Below, one piece after another: positions 35,564-37,811 of a stretch of DNA of 64,000 bases (the stretch's first letter is position 1; each line of letters starts with the position of its first letter). The notes beneath the pieces were generated by a model. It saw only the letters and a program-made list of their open reading frames with translations, had not been told where the DNA came from and searched no databases. Position numbers and translations under genes: made by a program. The stretch comes from Gaiellaceae bacterium (GTDB taxonomy: Bacteria > Actinomycetota > Thermoleophilia > Gaiellales > Gaiellaceae). The stretch is taken from assembly GCA_026002995.1 (NCBI GenBank), contig BPGK01000001.1, positions 1,178,001-1,242,000 on the forward strand, in the 5' to 3' direction.

Positions 35564-35605
35564 CGTTCCGGAGCCGCGGGGGAGAGGCCCGCGTAGGTGG
35601 ATCCG

Positions 35606-37036
35606 ATGCGACTTCTGGCTGCGGCAACCGCTCTCGTGGCAGCGCTCCTCGGCGGCGCGACGTCTGCGCGCGCCCTCGACGTCGGCGCGAACGACGACTC
35701 GGCGCGCTACCAGGACGATCGCGGGGCCGCCATGTTCGCGCAGATGCGCGAGCTCGGGCTCACCCGGGTCGTGATCGGCGTGCGGCACACGCCGAGCGAC
35801 CCGCTCGCGATCCCGGGGCGGGAGGGCCTCGCGGAGGCGGTGGAGGCGGCGTCGGCGGCCGGGCTGCGGGTCGTGCTCGCCGTCTACCCCTACCCACCGC
35901 GGGAGCTCGAGGCGGGCGTCGGGTCGCCGGTGCGCTTCGCGGCGTTCGTCGCGGAGGTCGCAAGGACGTTCCCCGCGGTGCGGGCCTTCGTGATCGGCAA
36001 CGAGCCGAACCAGCCCGCGTTCTGGCGCCCGCAGTTCGACGCGAGCGGCCGGAACGTCTCGGCGGCGGCGTTCGGCGCCTACCTGGCGGCGGCCTACGAC
36101 GCGCTCGAGGCCGTCGACCCGTCGATCACGGTGATCGGGGTCGGGCTCTCGCCGCGAGGGAACGACAAGCCGAGCGCGAGGAACAACGTCTCCACGTCGC
36201 CGATCCGCTTCCTCCGCTCGCTCGGCGCCTGGTACCGGGCGAGTGGGCGGACGCGCCCGCTCATGGACGCGTTCAGCTTCCACCCGTACCCCAGGGAGGC
36301 GACCGACCCGCTCGATCGCGGGTACGGATGGCCAAACGCAGGCTTCGTCAACCTCGACCGGGTGAAGCAGGCGCTCTGGGACGCCTTCCACGGAACCCCG
36401 CAGCCGACGACCCTGAACGGCCTCGCGATTCACCTCGACGAGGTCGGCTGGCAGGTCGACACTGCCCTGCGCGAGGGCTACCGCGGCGACGAGAACGTGC
36501 GTGTTACCGACGAGGCGTCCCAGGCGGAGATCTACGGCGAGCTCGTCCGCCGCGCCGCCTGCGATCCCGACGTCGCCTCGCTCAGCTTCTTCGGGTTCCG
36601 CGACGACGGGCTCCGCACCGGCTTCCAGACCGGGCTCCAGCGCGTCGACGGCAGCCCGCGACCCGCCTCGGCGGCGGTCCGCCAGGCTCTGAGCGAGGTA
36701 GCGGGCGGCTGCCCGTCGCCGGCCGCGCGCTGGCGGCCGGCTCGCACCGTCCTCGACGCGTCCGTCGCGGTCGAGGCTCGCGGAGCACGCCTGCTGACCC
36801 GTATCTCGACAGGAGAGGACGCCCGCGCGACGGTCTGCGTGCGGAGCATCCGCACCGGCAGGATCACCACCTGCCGCACCGTCTCGGTCGTCGGGCTCCG
36901 GCCGGCGCTCGTCGCCCTGCCGGCGCGGCGGGCGCTCCGTAGCCGTCTCGAGGTCGCGGTCGACCTCGAGGCCGAGGCGAACGCGGCCCGACGGAGCCGC
37001 CAGGTGCTCCGAGCGTACCCGGAAGCCCGGTCTTGA
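35606..37036 (+). CDS. Secreted glycoside hydrolase-like protein, paralogue of 1499-2956
   Basis: This protein of about 476 residues has a signal peptide (residues 1-24, ending SARA), a GH-A-type barrel with GNEPNQPAFW (acid/base Glu, about residue 133) and HLDEVGWQ (candidate nucleophile Glu), and a C-terminal domain with two Cys pairs. It shares the layout, RASGRTRP-MDAFS segment and NEPN motif of the gene at 1499. ATG 35606 is preferred over GTG 35597 because it gives the cleaner signal. Its TGA overlaps the -35 box of the following SOS promoter. Confidence 0.78.
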   Translation: MRLLAAATALVAALLGGATSARALDVGANDDSARYQDDRGAAMFAQMRELGLTRVVIGVRHTPSDPLAIPGREGLAEAVEAASAAGLRVVLAVYPYPPRELEAGVGSPVRFAAFVAEVARTFPAVRAFVIGNEPNQPAFWRPQFDASGRNVSAAAFGAYLAAAYDALEAVDPSITVIGVGLSPRGNDKPSARNNVSTSPIRFLRSLGAWYRASGRTRPLMDAFSFHPYPREATDPLDRGYGWPNAGFVNLDRVKQALWDAFHGTPQPTTLNGLAIHLDEVGWQVDTALREGYRGDENVRVTDEASQAEIYGELVRRAACDPDVASLSFFGFRDDGLRTGFQTGLQRVDGSPRPASAAVRQALSEVAGGCPSPAARWRPARTVLDASVAVEARGARLLTRISTGEDARATVCVRSIRTGRITTCRTVSVVGLRPALVALPARRALRSRLEVAVDLEAEANAARRSRQVLRAYPEARS

Positions 37037-37077
37037 CAGCGAACACGTGTTCGCTCATACTGCGAACACGTGTTCGC
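37033..37077 (+). promoter_or_regulatory. SOS promoter with two LexA boxes
   Basis: TTGACA (37033-37038), a 17-base spacer and CATACT (37056-37061) form a near-consensus promoter. The spacer holds a perfect LexA box with core CGAACACGTGTTCG (37040-37053). The identical core recurs at 37063-37076, after the -10, and covers the GTG start codon at 37070. Transcription should begin at or next to that start codon. Confidence 0.88.
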
Positions 37078-37309
37078 CAGGATCGTGATCGTCGTCCTCG
37101 TCTCCGTCCTCCTCTGGGCCGTCCTCGTACGGGACGGCGACGCGGGCTCGCCGCTCCGCCACCACGTCGTGCAGCCCGGAGACACGCTCTGGTCGATCGC
37201 AGCCGAGTCGTACGGCGGGGATCCGCGCGAGGGCGTGTGGAAGATCCAGCAGCGGAACGGTCTCGAGGGGGCGACGATCGTGCCGGGCCAGCGGCTCGTG
37301 CTGCCCTGA
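37070..37309 (+). CDS. SOS-controlled LysM membrane protein, YneA/DivS-like division inhibitor candidate
   Basis: This 79-residue protein has an N-terminal membrane helix (residues 3-18), a short linker and one LysM domain (HHVVQPGDTLWSIAAESYGG... ending GQRLVLP), which binds peptidoglycan. This layout and the tandem LexA boxes match the SOS-induced cell-division suppressors of gram-positive bacteria (YneA, ChiZ, DivS, SosA). These are unrelated or only loosely related in sequence but alike in build. Those genes usually sit beside lexA. Here lexA is not in the window. The start GTG lies inside the second LexA box, so the mRNA is probably leaderless. Confidence 0.85.
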   Translation: MFARIVIVVLVSVLLWAVLVRDGDAGSPLRHHVVQPGDTLWSIAAESYGGDPREGVWKIQQRNGLEGATIVPGQRLVLP

Positions 37310-37358: not shown

Positions 37359-37811
37359 ATGGCCAGCGACCGCATCCTCCAACTCCTCCGCAGTCCGGTC
37401 GATCCCGACGAGCTGGCAGAGATCCGAGAGCTCTGGAAGGCGCACTCGATCGCCGAGGACAACCGTGACCTACCGGGCCTGATCGCCACGCTCACCGAGG
37501 ACTGCGTCTACGAGGTGATGGGCACGGGCGCTCGCTGGGAGGGCCACGCCGGCGCCGAGCGCTTCTACACCGAGCTCCTGACGGCGTTCCCGGACATCCA
37601 CTTCGAGCTCGAGTACATCGTCATCGGGCCGCAAGGTGTCTGCGAGGACGCACGCGTGACCGCGACGCACGCCGGGCGCTGGCTCGATCTCGAGCCGACG
37701 GGCGAGCGGCTCGAGTGGCGGAACGCGATCTTCTTCCCCTGGGACCGGGGTGCCCGCAAGTTCAAGGGCGAGACTGTGTTCACGGACTTCCCGCACCTCG
37801 GCGTGCGCTGA
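37359..37811 (+). CDS. SnoaL/NTF2-fold protein
   Basis: This 150-residue protein has the NTF2-like cone fold: helices IRELWKAHSIAEDNRD, then strands ending FHFELEYIVIG-like and a TATHAGRWL strand. Family members are ester cyclases, hydratases or polyketide-type cyclases, and many are of unknown function. A good Shine-Dalgarno, AAAGGAG, precedes the ATG. The conserved Asp/His residues that define SnoaL activity cannot be assigned with certainty, so the substrate is unknown. Confidence 0.75.
   Translation: MASDRILQLLRSPVDPDELAEIRELWKAHSIAEDNRDLPGLIATLTEDCVYEVMGTGARWEGHAGAERFYTELLTAFPDIHFELEYIVIGPQGVCEDARVTATHAGRWLDLEPTGERLEWRNAIFFPWDRGARKFKGETVFTDFPHLGVR

Follow-up and report, generated by a model that had tools for sequence, protein, structure and literature searches.

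Introduction

SOS-induced LysM proteins that inhibit cell division are known, and the nearest described counterpart of the gene considered here is YneA of Bacillus subtilis, a small LexA-controlled protein with one N-terminal membrane helix and one extracellular LysM domain. The helix of YneA docks on FtsW, and its LysM domain is required for wall binding (PMC13396833). ChiZ (Rv2719c) of Mycobacterium tuberculosis and the lexA-linked LysM genes of other Actinomycetota likewise combine a membrane-LysM protein with nearby LexA boxes. SosA of Staphylococcus and DivS of Corynebacterium are SOS-induced single-helix division inhibitors as well, but have no LysM domain (PMC6851548). Streptomyces, on the other hand, reportedly has no clear homologues of the known SOS division inhibitors (PMC9380542). 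As to the form of SOS transcripts, the M. tuberculosis lexA mRNA is leaderless, with translation beginning at the transcription start, and the available part of the report in question does not describe a start codon within the operator (PMC2897130).

Here, a LysM gene is described from the window, i.e., the whole stretch of 64,000 nucleotides that was analysed, which comes from a bacterium of the family Gaiellaceae (class Thermoleophilia, order Gaiellales). It is probably an SOS gene, repressed by LexA and transcribed without a leader, that encodes a small division inhibitor of the YneA kind and has moved away from lexA. New with respect to the known SOS LysM division inhibitors is an SOS-type LysM protein whose gene is not linked to lexA, appears to be leaderless and has its start codon in the operator. 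Among open-access papers, none was found to describe a start codon covered by a LexA box, and a search by the names of the order and class found no LexA study of the order.

A start codon inside a predicted LexA box

The promoter region of the gene comprises the following elements.

37033..37038, forward strand: -35 hexamer TTGACA (direct read)
37041..37052, forward strand: predicted LexA box 1, GAACACGTGTTC, within the -35/-10 spacer (pattern match and conservation)
37056..37061, forward strand: -10 hexamer CATACT, with a 17-bp spacer 5' of it (direct read)
37064..37075, forward strand: predicted LexA box 2, GAACACGTGTTC, holding the start codon and codon 2, GTG TTC (pattern match and conservation)
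37068..37070, forward strand: predicted transcription start, giving a leader of 0-2 nt (from the distance to the -10)

The first-pass annotation had called this promoter nearly ideal. This is true of the TTGACA, which also holds the stop of the upstream gene (TGA, 37034-37036), and of the 17-bp spacer (GCGAACACGTGTTCGCT, 37039-37055), but CATACT agrees with TATAAT at only four of six positions. Similarly, box 1 does lie inside the spacer but does not fill it exactly, as had been stated: the 14-bp palindrome at 37040-37053 nearly fills the 17 bp. The identical second box was found where it had been placed, two bases (GC, 37062-37063) past the -10. The GTG start codon at 37070-37072 occupies bases 7-9 of this box, the right half of which thus constitutes codons 1 and 2. 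Because the LexA box commonly reads GAACNN(A/G)TGTTC, it can supply a start codon unchanged.

No Shine-Dalgarno-like stretch is found in the sequence 5' of the GTG. The gap between the -10 and the start codon is 8 nt, within the 6-10 nt or so that, together with a missing Shine-Dalgarno sequence, characterizes leaderless genes, but it also permits a leader of about two bases rather than zero. Judged from these sequence features, the LysM gene very likely has a leaderless start.

LexA and its predicted sites in the genome

The genome of the organism (2.62 Mb, a single contig) encodes one clear LexA (TIGR00498, 219 bits, cut-off 111), in which both an S24 peptidase domain and a LexA DNA-binding domain are recognized. 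The promoter of this lexA gene contains GAACATACGTTC, a GAACN4GTTC box. The first-pass annotation had conceded that its interpretation would fall if LexA of this organism recognised another sequence; this is unlikely, since a box of the same type lies in the promoter of the only clear lexA gene. From the sequence, the LysM gene is very probably under LexA control.

Palindromes of this kind can nevertheless serve other regulators, in which case the gene would stand outside the SOS response. Two TetR-family genes elsewhere in the phylum (L206, L207) have a pair of TGAACN4GTTCA palindromes, with the start codon in the second; the palindromes are probably the TetR genes' own autoregulatory operators over a leaderless start. 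However, the LysM-gene boxes have CGAAC..GTTCG flanks, which the lexA promoter of this genome shares, a LexA DNA-binding domain is present in 57 of the 61 genomes of the comparison set, and the mapped loci have no regulator gene as a constant neighbour. Operators of another repressor, e.g., of the TetR type, are accordingly considered very unlikely.

Other promoters of this genome that bear boxes are those of uvrA, an ImuB-like Y-family polymerase gene (two boxes), a DEDDh exonuclease/UvrC-type gene and dnaB. At dnaB, which encodes the replicative helicase, the perfect LexA-type box (L011, 1501-1512) lies right behind a -10-like TAACAT. The 500 bp upstream of recA (L242) hold no perfect GAACN4GTTC box. 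Single boxes are not significant genome-wide, because the 23 found compare with a chance expectation of about 16 for 2.62 Mb; counting them as a regulon was consequently abandoned. A pair this close together is expected only 0.0007 times per genome, and the two boxes of the LysM gene are the only perfect GAACN4GTTC sites in the window.

Paired boxes in the class

A pattern comprising both boxes and the embedded start codon (GAAC-N4-GTTC-N8..14-GAAC-NN-RTGTTC) was searched for in 399 genomes of the class, with the reversed pattern as control. It occurs in 116 of them and the control in none. By family (f1 to f5 and f7), matches were obtained in 103 of the 124 genomes of f1-f3, none of the five of f4, 12 of f5 and one of f7. 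In 29 of 30 sampled double-box loci, the embedded codon leads directly into the LysM family protein.

The f7 match is located at lexA. The f5 matches were rejected as LysM genes: they belong to another gene, which lies opposite mraZ and encodes a protein of about 100-115 aa with no LysM domain. In this family (L158-L169), paired LexA boxes with GTCCG between them precede a protein of about 96-115 aa divergent from an mraZ-like gene, a neighbour that heads the division cluster; the small protein of L158 has no Pfam match. The f5 protein may be an SOS division regulator of another kind.

Conservation among orthologues

A search for homologues was positive in 55 of 61 genomes, the own genome included, and 53 loci with usable upstream DNA were compared, the start being taken as the in-frame codon within the best box. 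This choice favours embedded starts, yet the GAAC half of the box is non-coding and the pattern search is free of that bias. The start codon lies in a box in 52 of the 53 orthologues (50 perfect GAACN4GTTC, two with the one-mismatch form GGAC..GTTC) and outside in one. ATG is used in 48 and GTG in five; all 52 with a box-embedded start, and no others, have TTC as codon 2. Box 1 is perfect in 47 of 53, and the starts of the two boxes are 22-25 bp apart, a variable spacing that implies no fixed LexA-LexA contact. Nearly all promoters keeping box 1 (46 of 47) also have TTGACA or a one-mismatch form of it. A TANNNT is present in 48 of 53, and 7-9 nt separate its end from the start codon in 45 of these 48; the compared orthologues have no space for a ribosome site between the -10 and the start. 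The conserved upstream columns of the alignment are those of the boxes and the -35. The screen of relatives proposed in the first-pass annotation has thus found boxes, leaderless geometry and LysM protein conserved together, through most of the order.

An AGGA just upstream of the GTG at 37085 raises the question of whether translation begins there, behind an ordinary leader, the overlap of the codon at 37070 with the box being incidental. But the AGGA is spaced only 2 nt from this codon, which is not a conserved start, whereas 52 of 53 orthologues retain Met-Phe at the N-terminus; a start at 37085 is most improbable.

With the start thus placed at 37070, the second residue deserves attention. 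In the aligned family, Met1 is invariant and Phe2 is found in all but one member (L077), which begins Met-Asn and has no box at its start but retains box 1, TTGACA and a -10. Moreover, the LysM homologues that adjoin lexA in other parts of the phylum start outside the boxes and mostly not with Met-Phe. Since L077 has lost both the box and Phe2, and the lexA-linked homologues mostly do without Met-Phe, Phe2 is apparently imposed by the operator. To judge from these alignments, the N-terminus seems to be dictated by the operator rather than by the protein.

A YneA-like protein

The gene and the parts of its product are as follows.

37070..37309, forward strand: 79-aa SOS-type membrane LysM protein, YneA-like (open reading frame; PF01476, E=1.3e-11; NF010723, 44.8 bits)
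37073..37135, forward strand: membrane helix, residues 2-22 (AlphaFold2 helix 2-22; hydropathy)
37163..37306, forward strand: LysM domain, residues 32-79 (PF01476; strand-helix-helix-strand in the AlphaFold2 model)

The protein indeed has the single membrane helix and single LysM domain that were first annotated. The mean hydropathy of the helix reaches 2.9 over 17 residues, the AlphaFold2 model (mean pLDDT 82) consists of one helix and the LysM fold, and the profile of the family finds LysM domains of known structure, e.g., that of LytE. The build had been likened to that of YneA, ChiZ and SosA. The helix-plus-LysM build of YneA, with a single C-terminal LysM domain, is present, and so are LexA boxes in the promoter, two of them, perfect and conserved; SosA does not belong in the comparison. 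The NCBIfam model of YneA is matched by all 26 aligned family members and, near full length (residues 5-79), by the window protein, which is filed as YneA-like and not as YneA proper because its score lies below the equivalog cut-off of 60. It differs from the B. subtilis protein in this respect, and also in that its gene lies away from lexA, appears to be leaderless and has its start codon inside the operator.

A LexA-controlled, leaderless gene of this build could also encode a damage-induced cell-wall factor, such as a hydrolase helper or an anchor that strengthens or remodels the envelope. LysM indicates likely wall binding alone, the YneA cut-off is missed, and ChiZ has been reported with hydrolase activity (PMC6851548). 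However, a helix and one LysM domain with nothing more is the build of YneA, a Pfam search found no catalytic domain in the 79 residues, and homologues elsewhere in the phylum are linked to lexA, like the known inhibitors. A cell-wall factor is hence judged unlikely. LysM is a common domain, so the reading as a division inhibitor rests on analogy; given LexA control and a leaderless start, inhibition of division by the LysM protein is likely, and a YneA-like action is what we infer for it.

A locus away from lexA

The LysM gene is flanked by two genes on the same strand.

35597..37036, forward strand: upstream gene, annotated in the first pass as a glycosidase (no Pfam or NCBIfam match at 0.001)
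37359..37811, forward strand: SnoaL-like gene with its own ribosome site, GGAG 9 nt upstream (PF07366, E=1.2e-14)

The LysM gene does follow the supposed glycosidase gene, but the latter is not a constant neighbour among relatives and was dropped as a partner gene; it and the SnoaL-like gene are found beside the LysM gene mainly within the genus. In families f1 and f2, the locus lies between an enolase-superfamily/DUF1611 pair and rnz, followed by pyrR-pyrB-pyrC, and most f3 members retain the enolase/DUF1611 side.

That the gene stands apart from lexA, as had been noted, holds for the order: among 30 lexA neighbourhoods, none has a LysM family member beside lexA, and no second, lexA-linked copy was found there. 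Adjoining lexA is a usual, not strictly defining, trait of YneA-type genes, in place of which the family occupies a fixed locus elsewhere. In other parts of the phylum, the search pattern picks out intergenic regions between lexA and a LysM gene, and family f6, which belongs to the same class, has its LysM gene downstream of lexA, under paired boxes. The simplest reading is that the LysM gene was relocated away from lexA. ChiZ and the other lexA-linked LysM genes thus differ from the gene described here in adjoining lexA and, in those read, in starting outside the boxes with other second residues.

A model for repression and induction

In the undamaged cell, one LexA dimer would sit between the -35 and the -10 and a second over the transcription start and the start codon, and the two bound dimers would exclude RNA polymerase from a strong promoter. 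Upon damage, RecA-driven cleavage of LexA would clear both sites. Transcription would then start at the GTG or within about two bases of it, yielding an mRNA without a leader. The N-terminal helix of the product would be inserted in the membrane with the LysM domain outside, where it may bind septal peptidoglycan and hold division during DNA repair, as YneA does via FtsW. A LexA box just behind a -10 would thus be a ready-made leaderless start codon, the operator fixing residues 1 and 2 as Met-Phe.

A possible second damage element

Six LysM promoters (L048, L050, L053, L054, L056, L057) lack both box 1 and a TTGACA at the proper place, but have GTCCG ahead of the -10. The lexA promoters of the order (own L125; relatives L132-L156) also carry GTCCG, about 10 nt before TANNNT and next to LexA boxes. 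The spacing between GTCCG and the -10 resembles that of the mycobacterial PafBC-type, RecA-independent motif, tTGTCRgtg-8 nt-TannnT (PMC5656591). The genome of the organism also holds, at C1:1653571-1654812 (L243, L244), a single open frame of 673 aa whose two WYL domains make it resemble a fused PafB-PafC damage regulator. Dual control by LexA and a PafBC-like regulator is plausible from these motifs.

Predicted operators as start codons

In other families of the phylum, DEDDh exonuclease/GIY-YIG genes (L204, L205) and AlkB-like 2OG oxygenase genes (L184, L185) have their start codon in the second of two LexA-type boxes, and all four proteins begin (M/V)F. There may be an even chance that the actinobacterial LexA box is a portable leaderless start, a box behind a -10 providing repression and the start codon together. 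Such an arrangement would have arisen more than once, for the LysM protein in one order and for AlkB-like and DEDDh-exonuclease genes in other families, the operator dictating the first two residues in each case.

The LysM gene would extend the SOS-type LysM division inhibitors to another actinobacterial order, at a site that searching beside lexA misses. Operator and coding sequence appear to be under joint constraint here, and the natural loss in L077 separates the two. Searching by promoter instead of by lexA linkage may uncover further SOS division inhibitors, for instance in bacteria such as Streptomyces.
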